Source: Caulobacteraceae bacterium | Lineage (GTDB): Bacteria > Pseudomonadota > Alphaproteobacteria > Caulobacterales > Caulobacteraceae | Assembly (NCBI GenBank): GCA_025359665.1 | Contig: JANYFU010000072.1 | Location: 1-36,584, forward strand | Direction: 5' to 3' | DNA length: 36,584 bases | Shown here: positions 24,325-31,851 of the stretch, piece by piece | How the letters are laid out: each line of letters begins with the position of its first letter | Numbering within the stretch: the first letter of the stretch is position 1 | Position numbers and translations under genes: made by a program | The notes under the pieces: model-generated | Told to the model about the DNA's origin: nothing | Databases searched by the model: none | What the model saw: only the letters and a program-made list of their open reading frames with translations

Positions 24325-25485
24325 ATGGCTGATGGGACGACTACGACAACGGCGGAGATGGGCGCCAGGCTGTTGGCGTTTTCATCCATTCCGGTCATCG
24401 ACATCGGGGCGCTGAGAGGAAGCGACCGGGCCGCGCTGGAGGCGTGCGCCCAACAGATCGGCCATGCCTGCGAGACCGTGGGTTTCTTCTATATCACTGG
24501 TCACGGCGTACCGGAGGCGCTGATCGCGCGCGCCTATGAGCGGTCCCGGATGTTCCACGCCTCACCGGTCGAACAGAAGGATCGGGTGCACATCCGTCAT
24601 TCGCCGGGCACCCGGGGCTGGTGCCCGGATAAGGACGACACCCAGGATGGCGATCCAGAACTCTACCGCCTGGTCGAGCCTCATCCCGATCACGACTACC
24701 TGACCAGGCCCCGGCTCCACGCCGCCTTCGACGTCGCCCTGGAACTTAGCGAAGATGACCCGGATTTTCGCGCCGGCAATCTGATGCTGGTGCCGAACCA
24801 ATGGCCGGACTGGATTCCCGGATTCCGCGAAGACATCATGGCCTACTACGATGCGGTCAAAGCCGTTGGTGATCGCCTGTTCCACGCCTTTGCGGTGGCT
24901 CTAGGGCTGCCCGAGGACTTCTTCGCCACGGTCACCGCCAAAAGCCCGTCACAGCTAAGACTGTTGCGCTACACGCCCAATGATCTGCCCATGGACAACG
25001 ATCACCTCGGCATTGGAGCCCATTCGGACTTCGAGTGCTTCACTATCCTGCACCAGTCGGCGCCAGGCCTGCAGGTGATGAACGCCGCCGACGAATGGGT
25101 GTCCGCGCCGCCGATAGCGGGGGCCTTCATCGTCAACGTCGGCGATCTGATCGAAGGCTGGACCAACGGCCGCTTCAAGGCCACGCAGCACCGAGTGGTG
25201 AATACGGGCAAGGAGCGGTTCTCCATGCCGCTGTTCTTCGCGGTGGACTATGACACGGTGATCGAGCCCCTCCCCGCCTTTGTCAGCAAGGAGAATCCAG
25301 CCAGATACAACAGGATCGTGGCGGGCGACCATCTGGCCGGTTTCAGCGTCAATGGCGCGAAACATCTGCGCAAGAAGATCGTGCAGGGCGAATTGAAGAT
25401 CGACTTCCCGATCCACCAGGAAAATCCGTTCAAGCGCAAGGCGGTCAACGAGTTCCAGGCGGGCGCTCGACAGGCGCCGGCATGA
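24325..25485 (+). CDS. Isopenicillin-N-synthase-like Fe(II)-dependent oxygenase
   Basis: A 386-residue cytosolic enzyme of the isopenicillin-N-synthase/2-oxoglutarate oxygenase superfamily. The DIOX_N part (IPVIDIGALRGSD, GFFYITGHGVPEALI) is followed by a complete metal site: His233 and Asp235 in GAHSDFECFT, His289 in KATQHRVVN, and Arg298-Ser300 (RFS), which usually binds the 2-oxoglutarate carboxylate. It could hydroxylate, desaturate or cyclise an imported compound. AGGAGG lies 8 bases before the ATG. It overlaps the following binding-protein gene by four bases, so it belongs to the TonB/ABC operon. Confidence 0.93.
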   Translation: MADGTTTTTAEMGARLLAFSSIPVIDIGALRGSDRAALEACAQQIGHACETVGFFYITGHGVPEALIARAYERSRMFHASPVEQKDRVHIRHSPGTRGWCPDKDDTQDGDPELYRLVEPHPDHDYLTRPRLHAAFDVALELSEDDPDFRAGNLMLVPNQWPDWIPGFREDIMAYYDAVKAVGDRLFHAFAVALGLPEDFFATVTAKSPSQLRLLRYTPNDLPMDNDHLGIGAHSDFECFTILHQSAPGLQVMNAADEWVSAPPIAGAFIVNVGDLIEGWTNGRFKATQHRVVNTGKERFSMPLFFAVDYDTVIEPLPAFVSKENPARYNRIVAGDHLAGFSVNGAKHLRKKIVQGELKIDFPIHQENPFKRKAVNEFQAGARQAPA

Positions 25486-25836
25486 CGCCCGTCCCTGGCG
25501 GCGTGGACCGTCGGCGCCTGATGCTTGGGGCGGCCGGACTCGGGGCGGTCGCCCTGGCCCAGGCCTGCGCGCCCAGCCCGACGGCGAAGGGCTCCGGAGC
25601 CCTCAAGGTTTCGACCTATGGCGGCAATTTCGAGCAGGCGATGAGCCAGCACGTCTATCCGGTGTTCGAGAAAGCCACCGGGATCAAGGTTCAGTCGATC
25701 GCCCAGCCAGCGGGTCTCCAGTTCCTGCTGCAGTTGATCCAGGCCAATCGCGCCGGCATGGCGCCGATGGACCTGTGCATTTCGGCCGCCATGGACATGA
25801 ATCGCGGCCGGACCGCCGGCATCTGGCGTGTTCGTG
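25482..25836 (+). pseudogene. ABC substrate-binding protein, 5' part (interrupted by IS66 element)
   Basis: This is the N-terminal part of a PotD/PotF-type periplasmic binding protein. It begins with a Tat-like signal combined with a lipobox (DRRRLMLGAAGLGAVALAQAC, Cys29 the likely lipidation site), then ALKVSTYGGNFEQAM, the classic opening of spermidine/putrescine-type binding proteins. The frame would read on inside the element and end at 25922 after 146 codons. The remainder of the gene lies at 27566-28299. The ATG overlaps the oxygenase stop as ATGA. The protein is almost certainly inactive in this strain. Confidence 0.93.
25828..25836. repeat. Left copy of 9-bp target-site repeat
   Basis: GTGTTCGTG flanks the element on the left and is repeated at 27557-27565. 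IS66-family members usually give 8 bp, so one base is ambiguous because of shared sequence at the ends. Confidence 0.8.
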
Positions 25837-27556
25837 GTAAGCGGGGCAAATTCCCGGGCGAGTGGGGTTGGCGGGGACTCGGGTTTGTGATTCACCCTAT
25901 GGATGCCGGCGCCGCGCTCTGAATCGGTTGATGATTTTTCCCTGGCCGGGCTTCGGCGAGTTGCTGAGACGCTTGTGGCCGAGGTGGATCGGCTGCGAGG
26001 TGAAGTTGGTGATCTGAAGCTTGCTGTGTTGGCCAGGGACGCCAAGATTTTGGAGCAGGCCGAGGAGATTGCGCGGTTGAAGGGTCTGCCGCCTCGACCG
26101 AAGTTCACGGGCAAGCCCTCGGGCATGGAGCAGGCGGTCTCGAAGGCGCTGGGCAAGAAGAAGGGCCGCAAGGCTCGCCGCGGCGCCAAGCGCGATGCGT
26201 CGGCGGTGACGGCGGAGATCAAGCTGAAGGTCGGCGCCGTGCCGCCCGGCTCCCGCTTCAAGGGCTATGAAGATGTGCTGGTCCGCGATCTGCGGATTGT
26301 CGTGGATGTGATCCGCTATCGGCGCGAGCGTTGGGAAACGCCCGACGGGGAGCGGCTGGTGGCGCCGTTGCCGGCGGGGGTGATGGGCGGCTTTGGTCCC
26401 CAGCTTCGCCAGTTCATTCTGGCGGGCCATTTTCAGGGCCAGATGACGAGCGAACGGCTGACCTCGCTTCTGAACGGCATGGGGTTGGAGATATCCAAGC
26501 GGCAGGTCGTGCGCTTCCTGGCCCAGGGGCTGGAGGGCCTGAGGGAGGAAGACCAGGCGGTTCTCCGCGTTGGTCTGGAGACGGCGGCGTGGATCACGGT
26601 GGACGACACCTCGGCGCGCCACGCCAGGAAGGACATGTTTACCACCCAACTGGGCGATGACCGCTTCGCCGCCTTCAGGACGGGGGCGTGCAAGTCCCGG
26701 CGGCGGTTCCTGTATGACCTGCAGTGTGGACGAGAGGACTATGTCGTCGATGATGAGGCCCTGGCCCACATGCGGCGGCTGAATCTGGCCGGGGGACTGA
26801 TCGACCAACTGGCGGCGCACCCGAACCGGCGCTTCGAGAGCCGGGCGGACTGGGAAGCCCATCTCGAGGCCTTGGGCTTTGACCAACTCAATACCTTGCC
26901 CAATCCAGTGAAGGTGGCCACCGAGGGCGCCTTGTGGGCCGCCGTCATGGAACAGGGCCTGATCAAGGGCACGGTCATCGTGTCCGATGGCGCCGGCCAG
27001 TTCCGCCTTCCCGATCACGCCCTGTGCTGGATCCACGCCGAGAGGCTGGTCTACAAGCTTCAGCCGACCAGTCTCGCCCACCGCCGGGCCGTGGACCTGG
27101 CGCGGACCTTGATCTGGTGGTTCTACCGCGACCTCAAAAGCTACAAGCTTGATCCCGATCCCAAGTGGGCACGGATGATGCGCGCCCGGTTCGACCGGAT
27201 CTTCACCAGGAACACCCGCTATATCCTGCTTGATCAGTTGCTGGCGCGCCTGCACCGACAAAGGGACGATCTGCTCCGCGTGCTCGACCGTCCGGAAATC
27301 CCGATCCACACCAATGGCTCGGAGAACGATATCCGCGCCGTCGTCACCAAGCGAAAAATATCCGGCGGCACGATCAGCGAGGCCGGCAAGGGCGCCCGCG
27401 ACACCCTGCTGGGCCTGATGAAGACCTGCGCCAAACAAGGCGTCTCGTTCTACCAGTTCCTCGGCGACCGCCTCGCCGTCCCAGGCGCGCCCACCGTCCC
27501 GCCGTTGCATCAACTGATCACAGCCGCCGCCTAGCCCGGGAATTTGCCCCGCTTAC
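25837..27556 (+). mobile_element. IS66-family insertion sequence, single-gene (ISBst12-like), 1,720 bp
   Basis: The element has perfect 23-bp terminal inverted repeats (25837-25859 and 27534-27556) that begin GTAAGCGGGG, typical for IS66. It carries only the long transposase and no tnpA/tnpB helper genes, which fits the ISBst12 subgroup. It lies inside a binding-protein gene and is flanked by a direct 9-bp repeat. The element is intact and its ends agree perfectly, so it moved recently and may still be active. Confidence 0.95.
25903..27534 (+). CDS. IS66-family transposase (single-ORF, ISBst12-like)
   Basis: A 543-residue DDE transposase. A coiled coil spans about residues 15-60 (ETLVAEVDRLRGEVGDLKL), followed by a basic Lys/Arg-rich linker (85-97). 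The catalytic triad is probably Asp234 or Asp235 in WITVDDTSARH, Asp360 in VIVSDGAGQF, and Glu472 in HTNGSENDIRAV. The C-terminal AVVTKRKISGGTISEAGKGARDTLLGLMKT block is the IS66 hallmark. The frame is intact and its last base reaches into the right inverted repeat. A 538-codon frame lies antisense to it and is a shadow. Confidence 0.95.
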   Translation: MPAPRSESVDDFSLAGLRRVAETLVAEVDRLRGEVGDLKLAVLARDAKILEQAEEIARLKGLPPRPKFTGKPSGMEQAVSKALGKKKGRKARRGAKRDASAVTAEIKLKVGAVPPGSRFKGYEDVLVRDLRIVVDVIRYRRERWETPDGERLVAPLPAGVMGGFGPQLRQFILAGHFQGQMTSERLTSLLNGMGLEISKRQVVRFLAQGLEGLREEDQAVLRVGLETAAWITVDDTSARHARKDMFTTQLGDDRFAAFRTGACKSRRRFLYDLQCGREDYVVDDEALAHMRRLNLAGGLIDQLAAHPNRRFESRADWEAHLEALGFDQLNTLPNPVKVATEGALWAAVMEQGLIKGTVIVSDGAGQFRLPDHALCWIHAERLVYKLQPTSLAHRRAVDLARTLIWWFYRDLKSYKLDPDPKWARMMRARFDRIFTRNTRYILLDQLLARLHRQRDDLLRVLDRPEIPIHTNGSENDIRAVVTKRKISGGTISEAGKGARDTLLGLMKTCAKQGVSFYQFLGDRLAVPGAPTVPPLHQLITAAA

Positions 27557-27565
27557 GTGTTCGTG
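27557..27565. repeat. Right copy of 9-bp target-site repeat
   Basis: GTGTTCGTG follows the right inverted repeat immediately. Removing the element together with this copy rejoins the binding-protein frame through RVRDPKPLTNL. Confidence 0.8.
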
Positions 27566-28299
27566 ACCCCAAGCCCCTGACCAACCTCGGCAACCTGCCG
27601 CCGCAGTATGTCGCCCATGGCGCGACGGGCATCGACGGCGTTGGCGCCCTGGGCTGGTTCGCGGCCTTTGTAATCAATCCGGACAAGGTCTCTCCGACGC
27701 CGGACAGCTGGACGGCGCTATGGGATCCGGCGCGAAAGGATGCCTGGGGCCTCGATGGCGGCGCCAGCCTGCTCTACGAGATCGCCGCCAAGACTTATTT
27801 TGGCGGTACGGAGATTCTTGAGACCGAAGCGGGCATCCTCAAGGTTCTGGCCAAGCTTGCCGGGCTCAAGCCCAACACCAAGCTGTGGTGGGAATCGGAG
27901 GGCACGATGCAGACGGCCCTGGAGAACGGCGAGGTTCAGGGGGGCATCTACTTCGCCGACGTGGCCGCGACCATGGCGGCCAGCGGCACGAGGATCAAGA
28001 CCATCTTCCCCAAAGAGGGGGCGGTGATCGACTTCGGCTGCTGGTGCCAGCCGACGGCCTCCAAGAAGATCGCCGAAGCCGACACCTTCATCAATTTCAT
28101 GTGCTCGGCCGAGGCGCAAAATCTGATCGGCCGGCGCGTCAACGCCCCGCCCCTGATCCGGCGCGAGCTTCTCGACCTGACCCCGGCCGAGTTCGCCAAG
28201 GTCTCCAGCGACATTCCGCCGATAACGGTCAATCTGAAGGCCCGCGCCGACCACCTCGACTTCATGGCCAGCCAATTCAACCAGATGGTTTCGAGCTAG
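27566..28299 (+). pseudogene. ABC substrate-binding protein, 3' part (interrupted by IS66 element)
   Basis: This is the C-terminal two-thirds of the binding protein, in frame with the 5' part once the element and one repeat copy are removed (355 + 734 bases = 363 codons including the stop, 362 residues). It carries the hinge and ligand regions typical for PotD-like proteins: GYFAAF-type GALGWFAAFVINPDKV, DSWTALWDPARKDAWG, LWWESEGTMQTALENGEVQGGIY, and the C-terminal helix ADTFINFMCSAEAQNLIGRRVNAPP. No start with a ribosome binding site precedes it, so it is not translated as a functional exported protein. Confidence 0.93.
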
Positions 28300-28310: not shown

Positions 28311-29360
28311 GTGTTTGGTCTGGAAATCAGGAATGTCAGCAAGGCGTACGGACCCCTGCTAGCCGTGGACGATGTTTCGCTTTCAATACCGCAGGGCCAG
28401 TTCGTGTGTTTCCTGGGTCCATCGGGTTGCGGCAAAACCACCCTGCTGCGGATCATCGCCGGGCTTGAACCAGCCGGCGCCGGCGCGATCGTGCTGAACG
28501 GCAAGGACATAACCACCCAGGGCGCCAACGCGCGCCAGTTCGGAATGGTGTTCCAGTCCCTGGCTCTGTTTCCACACCTGTCGGTCTGCGACAACGTCGC
28601 CTTCAGCCTGCGCCTGCGCGGCGTTGACCAGAAGACCCGCAGAGCCCGAGTCGACGAACTCCTCAGCCTCGTGCGGCTGCCTGGCATGGCCAGCCGGTCG
28701 ATCAGTCAGCTATCAGGTGGACAGAGGCAAAGGGTGGCGATCGCCCGCGCCCTGGCCCAGGAGCCGCCAGTGTTCCTGTTGGACGAACCGTTCTCCGCCC
28801 TCGACGCCAAACTGCGGGAGGAGATGCAGGCAGAGCTTCGCGAGTTGCAGAAGCGCCTGAAGATCACCACCATCCTGGTCACTCATGATCAACGCGAAGC
28901 CATGTCGATGGCGGACGATATCGCGGTGATGGGCGAAGGGCGGATCCAGCAATATGGCGTCCCGCTATCGCTCTATCGCGAGCCCGCCAACCGTTTCGTC
29001 GCCAATTTCCTGGGCCTCAGCAATCTTTTGCCGGTGGAAATTCTTTGCCGCGACCGGGTGCGGCTGGGAGAAGCGGTCATCGCGGTGGCGCCGATGGCCG
29101 AGCCTCACGCCCGTGGCGTCGCCACCCTCTCGATCCGTCCGGAGGATGTGCTTCTGACGCTTGACGCCCCGGACGCCACCAGTCTGCCTGGGCTGATCCT
29201 GGCGGTTCGCGACATGGGTTCCAGCGTCGAGGTGCGACTCGACTGCCACGGCCACCAGGTGCTGTGTGTCTTGCAGCCCAGGGACTGGGCGGGCGCGGCG
29301 GCCGGGAGCACCGTCAAGGTCGGGTTCCCGGCGCAACAGTGCCGGGTTTTGGCCGCGTGA
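28311..29360 (+). CDS. ABC transporter ATP-binding protein, PotA/FbpC type
   Basis: A 349-residue ATPase with all nucleotide-binding motifs: Walker A GPSGCGKTT (36-44), Q-loop Gln82 in VFQSLALFPHL, signature LSGGQRQR (134-141), Walker B VFLLDEPFSALD (154-165), and switch His192 in VTHDQ. A C-terminal TOBE-like domain (from about 245; ATLSIRPEDVLLTL) marks the importer class for polyamines, iron(III) or similar solutes. The start is GTG at 28311, 11 bases after the binding-protein stop; AGG in the stop region may serve as a ribosome binding site. Its TGA overlaps the next permease start as GTGA. Confidence 0.96.
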   Translation: MFGLEIRNVSKAYGPLLAVDDVSLSIPQGQFVCFLGPSGCGKTTLLRIIAGLEPAGAGAIVLNGKDITTQGANARQFGMVFQSLALFPHLSVCDNVAFSLRLRGVDQKTRRARVDELLSLVRLPGMASRSISQLSGGQRQRVAIARALAQEPPVFLLDEPFSALDAKLREEMQAELRELQKRLKITTILVTHDQREAMSMADDIAVMGEGRIQQYGVPLSLYREPANRFVANFLGLSNLLPVEILCRDRVRLGEAVIAVAPMAEPHARGVATLSIRPEDVLLTLDAPDATSLPGLILAVRDMGSSVEVRLDCHGHQVLCVLQPRDWAGAAAGSTVKVGFPAQQCRVLAA

Positions 29361-30214
29361 CCACACAGCGGCGAGATAGCCTGGCGCTCTCCGTGCTGCT
29401 CTCGGCGCCGGCCGTATTTCTGCTCACCCTCAGTGTGGTCCCCGTTCTGCTGCTGCTGCAACTGAGCGTGGCCCACCATGCCGAAGGTGGGCTCTGGTCA
29501 CCGGGTTTCGAGCTGAGCCAGTACGCTCAATTGCTCAATCCGGAGTTCCTGAAGGTCGCGGCCTTCTCCTTCGGCCTGGCGATCGTCACGGCCCTGATCA
29601 CGGTGACGATCGCCTTTCCCGCCGCCTATTTCATCACCCGCATGCGGCGCCGCACCCAGGTGGCGTGGCTGGTGGGATTGCTGAGCACCCTGTCGCTGTC
29701 CGAGGTCCTGGTGGTGTTCGCCTTTCAGGTTCTGCTGTCCGGCGGCGGCGGGCTGGTGAAAGCCTTGGTTACCCTGGGCGTGATGGCCCAGCCACAGTCG
29801 CTCTATCCCAATGTCGCGGCGGTTCTGGTCTGTCTGGTCTATCTGGTGCTGCCTTACATCATCCTGTTTCTATACCCGGCCTTGTCACGCCTGGACGATG
29901 ACCTGCCCGCCGCGGCGGCGACCATGGGCGCTTCGCCACCGCGGATTTTTGTTTCGGTGACCGCGCCTCTGGTTCGCGGGTCGCTGTTTTCCGCCTTCCT
30001 GCTGGTGATCATCTTTACGGTGGGGTCCTACCTGACGCCCCTGGTGCTGGGCCGGCCACAGCACTGGACCATCGGAATTCTGATCAACAACGCCGCCATG
30101 GGCACGGGAAACCTGCCGTTGGCCGCGGCGCAGGCGGTCGCGCTGGTGCTGATCATGGCCGTGTTGTTCGGCCTCGCCCGAGGTTTGGGCCGGGCGCGGG
30201 ACGCATCGGAATGA
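29357..30214 (+). CDS. ABC transporter permease, PotB type
   Basis: A 285-residue inner-membrane permease with about six transmembrane helices (SLALSVLLSAPAVFLLTLSVV first). The cytoplasmic EAA-like loop is AAAATMGASPPRIFVSVTAPL. It starts at a GTG overlapping the ATPase stop codon and ends with an ATGA overlap to the second permease, so the three genes are translated together. Paired with the PotC-type permease it forms a heterodimeric channel for a cationic or small organic solute. Confidence 0.94.
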   Translation: MTTQRRDSLALSVLLSAPAVFLLTLSVVPVLLLLQLSVAHHAEGGLWSPGFELSQYAQLLNPEFLKVAAFSFGLAIVTALITVTIAFPAAYFITRMRRRTQVAWLVGLLSTLSLSEVLVVFAFQVLLSGGGGLVKALVTLGVMAQPQSLYPNVAAVLVCLVYLVLPYIILFLYPALSRLDDDLPAAAATMGASPPRIFVSVTAPLVRGSLFSAFLLVIIFTVGSYLTPLVLGRPQHWTIGILINNAAMGTGNLPLAAAQAVALVLIMAVLFGLARGLGRARDASE

Positions 30215-31020
30215 TCAAGCTGGCGACGGCTCTGCGCAGGCTTTTCCTGGGTCTGGTCGCCCTGTTCATCGCCGCCCCATTGCTGGTGGTGATCGGCGTC
30301 TCGTTCAATGAAAGCCGGCGCATGAGCTTCCCGCCCACGGTGATTAGCCTGAAATGGTACCGGGCCTTCTTCACTGACCCGGACTGGACGGACTCGCTGA
30401 AGTTGTCGCTGTCGATCAGCGCCCTGGCCGCGCTGGTGTCGGTCACTGTGGCCCTGCCGATCGCCTATGCGGTCTGGCGCTATCGCTCCCGGGCGGCGAC
30501 CGCCATGGCCAGCGTCGGCTCCAGCCTCTTCCTTCTGCCCGGGGTGGTGACGGCGCTGATGTTCTCGGCCTTCTGGGGCGTAGTCGGCCATGTCGGACGG
30601 GCGGAAAATGTCGTGCTCAGCCATGGAGCGGTGCTGCTGGGCATCCCGATCGCCCTGCTTTCCGTCGGCTTCCAGGCTATCGACCGCAATCTGATCGAGG
30701 CCGCGCGAACCATGGGAGCGGGGGAAACCGATGCCTTCCGGATGGTGATCCGGCCGGCGATGACGCCCTATATCCTGTGCGCCCTGATCTATGTCTTCGT
30801 GCTCAGCCTGAACGAATATCTGATCGCCTATATGGTGGCCGGCTTTTCGGTCCAGACCCTGCCGATCCGGGTATTTGGCAGCATGAGGTCGGGCTATGAA
30901 CCGACCCTGTGCGTCGGCGCGGTGATCTTCATCGTCCTGGGCCTCGCCAGCTTCTGGCTGTTGGCGGCGATCGGCGACCTGCCCAGGCTGATGGGCCGCC
31001 ACAAGCCACTGGAAGCGTGA
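30211..31020 (+). CDS. ABC transporter permease, PotC type
   Basis: A 269-residue inner-membrane permease with about six helices (LFLGLVALFIAAPLLVVIGV first). The EAA loop is EAARTMGAGETDAFRMVIRPAM. FNESRRMSFPP, a periplasmic segment just after TM1, is a PotC-class signature. It overlaps the first permease by four bases, and its stop codon is immediately followed by the start of the next gene. Confidence 0.95.
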   Translation: MIKLATALRRLFLGLVALFIAAPLLVVIGVSFNESRRMSFPPTVISLKWYRAFFTDPDWTDSLKLSLSISALAALVSVTVALPIAYAVWRYRSRAATAMASVGSSLFLLPGVVTALMFSAFWGVVGHVGRAENVVLSHGAVLLGIPIALLSVGFQAIDRNLIEAARTMGAGETDAFRMVIRPAMTPYILCALIYVFVLSLNEYLIAYMVAGFSVQTLPIRVFGSMRSGYEPTLCVGAVIFIVLGLASFWLLAAIGDLPRLMGRHKPLEA

Positions 31021-31851
31021 ATGACCTCGTTCGTGCCCCCGGAGCTGTCCGGCGTCTGGCGCCGGGAAGTGATTACCACGCCTTCCGGCCACCGCGACGC
31101 CGACACCCAGGTCCTGTGGCTGCAAACCCGTTCCTGGTACGCCGACATACGGGTGCGGGCGGATCGGCCGGTGCGTGACGGAGCGAGGGGGTTCGAAGAC
31201 TACAGCGACGGCGAACTACTTGAACTGGCGAGGGTCCAGGGCTTCGCCGGGCAACTGTCGGCCCATGACGGCGTCTGCCTGTGGCGGCGTGATATCGATT
31301 ATCAGCCACCGAGCCCGGAGCCCGACGAGGCGACCTACTCCATAGCCAGAGATGTGATGGTCGAGGACGGGATCCACTCGGACTATCAGGAAATCTGGCG
31401 TCGTGAGCCGCGGTCGGACACGCCTCTCGTGGCCTTGCGTCTGGTGATGGACAGCACTTGCCAGGGGCGGGAAGGGTTACTGGCGGTTGCGGGAGATCAC
31501 TTCATCGATATCCGCGGTCGTGCCGCCACAATACCCAAAGGGGCCGATCTGGGCGCGATCATCGCCGCAGCCCTGAAGTCTGGCCGTCGCAAAGACGCCA
31601 TCGCGGCGCTCTCCCTCAGGATCAGCTATGGGCGCATCGACACCGGAGCGTGGACCGTCGCCACCTCGTCATTTCCATGGCTGGAAAGACGCGAGCTTTG
31701 GGCGGGCGGGGCTGTCCATCTTGAGCCGGACGGGCGCGAACTCACCTATGAGGCTCTGGACGAACGCCAAACCTGGACCCTGATCGATTCCTCGGCTTCC
31801 GCGCACACACTTGACTCCCTCGCGGAGGCGTGGGCGTTAAAGCGGCGGTGA
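31021..31851 (+). CDS. Uncharacterised soluble protein encoded at the end of the TonB/ABC operon
   Basis: A 276-residue cytosolic protein that starts on the base after the permease stop (TGAATG). The opening LSGVWRREVITTPSG and TQVLWLQTRSWYADIRVRAD pattern, with a WxR/WLQT/ADIR core, belongs to a conserved bacterial family of unknown role that I cannot name firmly. The middle is YQEIWRREPRSD and the C-terminal half has beta-rich segments ending in ERRELWAGGAVH. The layout of two Trp-rich beta-barrel-like halves recalls lipocalin-like or HRI1-type proteins, but only faintly. Its position says that it acts on, or binds, the imported molecule or its oxidised product. Confidence 0.75.
   Translation: MTSFVPPELSGVWRREVITTPSGHRDADTQVLWLQTRSWYADIRVRADRPVRDGARGFEDYSDGELLELARVQGFAGQLSAHDGVCLWRRDIDYQPPSPEPDEATYSIARDVMVEDGIHSDYQEIWRREPRSDTPLVALRLVMDSTCQGREGLLAVAGDHFIDIRGRAATIPKGADLGAIIAAALKSGRRKDAIAALSLRISYGRIDTGAWTVATSSFPWLERRELWAGGAVHLEPDGRELTYEALDERQTWTLIDSSASAHTLDSLAEAWALKRR

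Follow-up and report, generated by a model that had tools for sequence, protein, structure and literature searches.

An IS66-type insertion sequence with a 9-bp target duplication in the binding-protein gene of an ABC importer operon of a Caulobacteraceae bacterium

The ends of IS66-family insertion sequences typically start with GTAA, and the tables of the family may allow target duplications of 8-9 bp. The closest described relatives of the element considered here belong to the ISBst12 group, i.e. IS66 elements with a single ORF, such as ISDge4 (PMC12898284). Group and element have in common one transposase gene of the PF03050 type and ends starting with GTAA or similar. The duplication printed for ISDge4 is 8 bp, and ISDge4 is described as copy-and-paste, which its authors call “unlike other IS66 family members”. 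Duplications of 8 bp are also given for the IS66 elements ISPpa5a and ISPpa7 in PMC3281130. Deep sequencing of ISEc22, also of IS66, yielded zero circle junctions and zero deletion junctions according to PMC5001619; the text of that report has deletion junctions absent for every IS, although its own table holds single ones for IS6100 and ISKpn18. Further relatives are plasmid elements of Mesorhizobium (CP050294.1, HB777_35145), annotated as “transposase” with no IS name. For the interrupted operon the comparison is with the PotABCD importers, where binding protein, ATPase and two permeases likewise follow one another in order.

We analysed a stretch of 36,584 nucleotides (the window) from a Caulobacteraceae assembly of 4.5 Mb in 634 contigs, 90% complete and with 1.9% contamination. 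Its genes run in the order TonB receptor, 2OG-Fe(II) oxygenase, binding protein, ATPase, two permeases, a Pfam-unmatched protein and an MFS transporter (Table 1). Very probably, a single-ORF IS66-type element jumped into the binding-protein gene of this TonB receptor, 2OG oxygenase and ABC importer operon in a recent event, import has been lost or much reduced, and the element mostly stays put. The element itself is a new member of an already known kind, with ordinary behaviour.

Table 1. Features of the insertion locus, in window coordinates.
Feature	Position	Strand	Evidence or remark
IS66-type single-ORF insertion sequence, 1720 bp	25837..27556	+	perfect inverted ends and target duplication
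Left terminal inverted repeat, 23 bp, begins GTAAGC	25837..25859	+	end comparison
Right terminal inverted repeat, 23 bp	27534..27556	-	end comparison
Left copy of 9-bp target duplication, GTGTTCGTG	25828..25836	none	
Right copy of 9-bp target duplication, GTGTTCGTG	27557..27565	none	
Conserved left-end box GTGATTCA, from base 51 of element	25887..25894	+	
Transposase, 543 aa, ATG to TAG, DDE-type residues VDDT, SDGAGQ, NGSEND	25903..27534	+	PF03050, alignment A1
5' part of solute-binding-protein gene, 118 codons and first base of codon 119	25482..25836	+	59-74% aa identity, 10 relatives
ORF as now read, 118 native residues and 28 from element	25482..25922	+	
3' part of solute-binding-protein gene, 243 full codons from 27568	27566..28299	+	59-75% identity, 10 relatives
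2OG-Fe(II) oxygenase	24325..25485	+	PF14226, PF03171; overlaps binding-protein start (ATGA)
ABC transporter ATPase, GTG start chosen by eye	28311..29360	+	PF00005, PF08402 for 28317-29360
ABC permease 1	29324..30214 (5' end approximate)	+	PF00528; PotB-like, below cut-off
ABC permease 2	30211..31020	+	PF00528; PotC-like, below cut-off

A preliminary description of the locus had claimed perfect 23-bp ends, a 9-bp direct repeat and an intact transposase, and all three are borne out. Both ends read GTAAGCGGGGCAAATTCCCGGGC without mismatch, with the GTAA start of the family at each, and the transposase frame is open with its DDE-type residues kept. Only 66 bp precede and 22 bp follow this ORF, which leaves no space there for more genes and no room for tnpA and tnpB companions; the single ORF is as in the ISBst12 group, and so is the length, about 1.7 kb. 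The element is oriented in the direction of the operon. A second, diverged copy elsewhere in the assembly (contig C590) has an open frame, 62% amino acid identity and its own flanking 9-bp repeat. In another genome of the genus (G011; L079, 7005-7282) we observed a 278-bp stretch 89% identical to the left end of the element, from which it follows that the lineage of the element was present in the genus earlier; a right end belonging to this stretch was looked for and not found.

The transposase matches PF03050, the IS66 DDE domain and the only Pfam family that it hits, at 66 bits (gathering score 23.1); eight of eight members of alignment A1 match the domain at E values up to 1. Against the NCBIfam IS66 transposase model NF033517 it reaches 121.5 bits, below the cut-off of 180, an outcome that is a model score and not a mechanistic trait. 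When eight relatives are aligned, the invariant residues fall partly in the VDDT, SD.AGQ and SE.D motifs, which, as in DDE transposases generally, would hold the catalytic triad. A profile of the transposase searched against the PDB gave just weak coiled-coil matches at the N terminus, none with an E value better than 0.01. The Mesorhizobium elements of CP050294.1 are 58-60% identical over the whole transposase and share a similar layout (1723 bp), perfect 23-bp ends and a 9-bp duplication, seen at two plasmid sites; they differ in host group and in ends that start with GTAACC rather than GTAAGC.

The element breaks the binding-protein gene after codon 118. The preliminary description had noted the split and had claimed that precise removal restores 362 codons in one frame. 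This is correct: the coding spans 25482-25835 and 27568-28296 encode 118 and 243 residues, and the rejoined gene (118 + 1 + 243 codons) has no stops. In all six intact orthologs aligned over the junction, drawn from the ten other genomes with a match to the C-terminal part, the junction column is Asp, with no stop and no gap beside it, and therefore no codon was lost or gained at insertion. At the orthologous loci L071, L072 and L073, the matched N and C parts lie exactly one codon apart. Insertion is favoured over chance because exact 9-bp repeats flank eight other copies and the six intact orthologs join the flanks as one gene.

By eye, the N terminus of the binding protein is signal-like (RR followed by a hydrophobic stretch), and the N part alone matched no Pfam family; the C-terminal part (ORF 27544-28299) matches SBP_bac_8 at 64 bits (gathering score 27). 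At a threshold of E 1e-25, the C-terminal part occurs in 11 of 299 same-family genomes, counting that of the window, and in none of the 15 same-genus genomes. Weaker matches of 26-31% identity, present in many of these, are taken as paralogs. Viral contigs searched for the C-terminal part gave five stretches that fit the pattern, none of them confirmed as a relative, and TAL-effector matches of the binding protein were set aside as an artefact, since no stretch passes on its own.

As judged from sequence, the importer resembles polyamine importers. The C-terminal part resembles spermidine/putrescine-binding structures (1pot, E 2e-8), yet it, the ATPase and both permeases all fail to reach the Pot model cut-offs, and the ATPase departs from the PotABCD type in scoring best with the 2-aminoethylphosphonate model, again below cut-off. 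The label PotD given in the preliminary description is too specific, as the C-terminal part alone scores 38 bits with the PotD equivalog model, whose cut-off is 582, and the N part gives no hit to it. The window operon also adds a TonB receptor and a 2OG oxygenase to the PotABCD arrangement; a literature search found no paper linking TonB receptor, isopenicillin N synthase, polyamine and Caulobacter.

L071, L072 and L073 share the set from the TonB receptor to the protein encoded at 31021-31851, at 52-83% identity. In these loci the oxygenase and binding-protein genes are separated by a gap of about 1.8 to 5 kb, which is occupied by other genes in L072 and L073. By eye, an opposite-strand aldehyde-dehydrogenase-like gene lies in this gap in both (L072 10440-14965, L073 10241-11764), together with an amidohydrolase-like gene in L072. 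The TonB receptor match of L075 is weaker (29%), the oxygenase of L076 is on the opposite strand, and L074, a 7.4-kb contig, has no match to oxygenase or TonB receptor. The protein at 31021-31851 is present in all six orthologous loci examined (48-57% identity), and has no match in Pfam or NCBIfam at E 0.001.

The likely course of events would begin with a 9-base staggered cut by the transposase, followed by fill-in to give the 9-bp duplication. Since the gene is split, its function is presumably lost: the N product would carry 28 foreign residues after its 118, and the C product has, by eye, no signal peptide. The two fragments would make no working binding protein, so that import by the ABC system would be lost or much reduced. 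Gene disruption of this kind is routine, and the locus offers a single clean example from a natural lineage in which an importer has been broken. The broken ORF extends 20 nt beyond the transposase start at 25903, an overlap through which its translation could feed that of the transposase.

The insertion is probably recent relative to the divergence from the orthologs. Values of dN/dS (NG86) for the window against L071, L072 and L073 are 0.26, 0.19 and 0.33 for the N part and 0.24, 0.21 and 0.29 for the C part. These ranges (0.19-0.33 and 0.21-0.29) overlap the 0.14-0.30 of the intact neighbours (ATPase 0.18-0.23, permeases 0.22-0.28, oxygenase 0.14-0.16, the protein at 31021-31851 0.25-0.30), and one of the three N-part values, 0.33, exceeds all of those of the neighbours. 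Tajima-type counts with three orthologs and up to four outgroups gave neither half a significant excess on the window branch; the two values that pass 3.84, both for the C part with outgroup L074 (4.12 and 3.92), run in the opposite direction. The test is noisy, as an excess on the window branch is seen for the intact ATPase with outgroup L074 (about 9) and for the intact oxygenase with outgroup L067 (4.6, in one of three comparisons). The absence of a clear acceleration of the halves over their operon neighbours thus fits a recent event and gives no date. What stands of the earlier description of the insertion as recent is that the halves are free of stops, frameshifts and clear acceleration, with the date not fixed by dN/dS or counts.

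An old insertion in a gene that was no longer needed, with halves undamaged through luck or through divergence too small to see, would draw on the weakness of these tests for short times, as they sum over the whole divergence and a short neutral period would escape them, and on the 15 same-genus genomes without the C part, which suggest that the system may be dispensable. It has to account for 361 full codons with neither stop nor frameshift, for identical repeats and identical ends, and for halves with no significant excess of change, and we regard it as unlikely. More improbable still is an assembly chimera or a strain mixture, in which the insertion would be an artefact or be confined to part of the population: the fragmented, 90% complete assembly with its 1.9% contamination leaves some room for this, against which intact ends with a duplicated target are the expected product of transposition, the element resembles its flanks in base composition (65% and 64%), and the assembly holds just one identical copy, though repeats can collapse.

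The same very low probability attaches to a revertible switch, by which precise excision at a useful rate would let the population alternate between broken and intact importer. The open transposase frame, the perfect ends and repeats and the undamaged halves all suit such a switch, as does the wording of the ISDge4 authors, by which other IS66 members might differ from ISDge4 (PMC12898284). ISDge4 itself is nevertheless reported there as copy-and-paste, ISEc22 gave neither circle nor deletion junctions (PMC5001619), and among the genomes that we compared the same site was never found both empty and filled. The proposal in the preliminary description that the insertion is revertible is therefore unsupported, with the published observations on ISDge4 and ISEc22 speaking against routine excision. 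On the preferred reading of a recent insertion, the element would mostly stay in place and its precise loss would be rare. Slippage between 9-bp repeats is a possible, rare event.

It had also been suggested that downstream genes can still be read. Between 25400 and 28400, the only terminator-like sites are two on the non-operon strand, no more than in shuffled sequences, and the transposase points in the operon direction, both in keeping with the suggestion; a scan of both strands of this interval for one promoter type gave no promoter-like site. Judged on these features, transcription of the genes downstream of the element is possible.

The 9-bp duplication departs from the 8 bp known as an IS66 trait and printed for ISDge4, ISPpa5a and ISPpa7, and the literature consulted on IS66 and ISBst12 duplications contained no report of 9 bp in this group. 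As the tables of the family may give 8-9 bp, we neither treat 9 bp as excluding IS66 nor claim it as new. Nor is it an 8-bp repeat plus one base of the end, because the two registers differ at fixed ends and the base adjoining the right end varies between copies. We surveyed 93 loci, namely the 80 best of 445 confirmed transposase relatives in genome contigs and 13 others, the window included, with ends picked by inverted-repeat match alone. An exact repeat of 8 or 9 bp was found at 32 (8 bp at 19, 9 bp at 13), one of 7 bp at a single locus, no pair of ends at 23, and ends with no such repeat at 37 (five of these where the contig stops). L078 and L092 represent a single place, and at 12 loci the inverted repeats are weak (fewer than 18 of 24), making their ends doubtful.

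Once L146 and L152 (weak ends) and L135 (repeat inside the IS end) had been dropped, relatives with an exact duplication among these best 80 of 445 and 13 others divided by amino acid identity to the window transposase: 9 bp in 9 of 10 at 58% or above, and 8 bp in 17 of 19 below it (Fisher p 5e-5, for a threshold chosen post hoc and rows that are non-independent). The exceptions are L094 (68%) with 8 bp, and L112 (52%) and L131 (51%) with 9 bp. Besides the window, eight copies of at least 58% identity have an exact 9-bp repeat, seven with GTAA ends and one with GTAT (L095); L096 and L097 represent the same element inserted at two sites, and L080 and L102 nearly so. A further Mesorhizobium plasmid copy has 9 bp, and in another 8 of 9 positions match when the 9-bp register is used, as against 2 of 8 with the 8-bp one. 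Counting against the 9-bp reading, the ends of L092 (72%), L101 and L106 are good yet lack a flanking repeat. On a quick tree of 29 rows the 8- and 9-bp states need five changes, and on one large branch of 31 rows all 13 repeats are of 8 bp.

The first and last 140 nt of 53 related elements were also searched for the box GTGATTCA, which in the left end lies near base 50, just ahead of the transposase start. Of the 15 distinct elements of at least 58% identity, 12 have it exactly and three depart from it by a single base or position; an exact box is also present in 2 of the remaining 38, with near forms at the same place in about nine more. It is absent from the last 140 nt of all 53. There is about an even chance that single-ORF IS66 elements include an alphaproteobacterial branch, to which this element belongs, with a transposase that usually cuts with a 9-base stagger and with GTGATTCA some 50 nt inside the left end alone, the spacing having switched between 8 and 9 within one family. 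The survey suggests that, within one transposase family, duplication length varies from branch to branch, a difference that could help in asking which feature of a transposase sets the distance between its two cuts. Three Microvirga elements (L112, L131 and L137), with duplications of 9, 9 and 8 bp, lie in the same target, GTGGCTTTCGG, which is perhaps a repeat.
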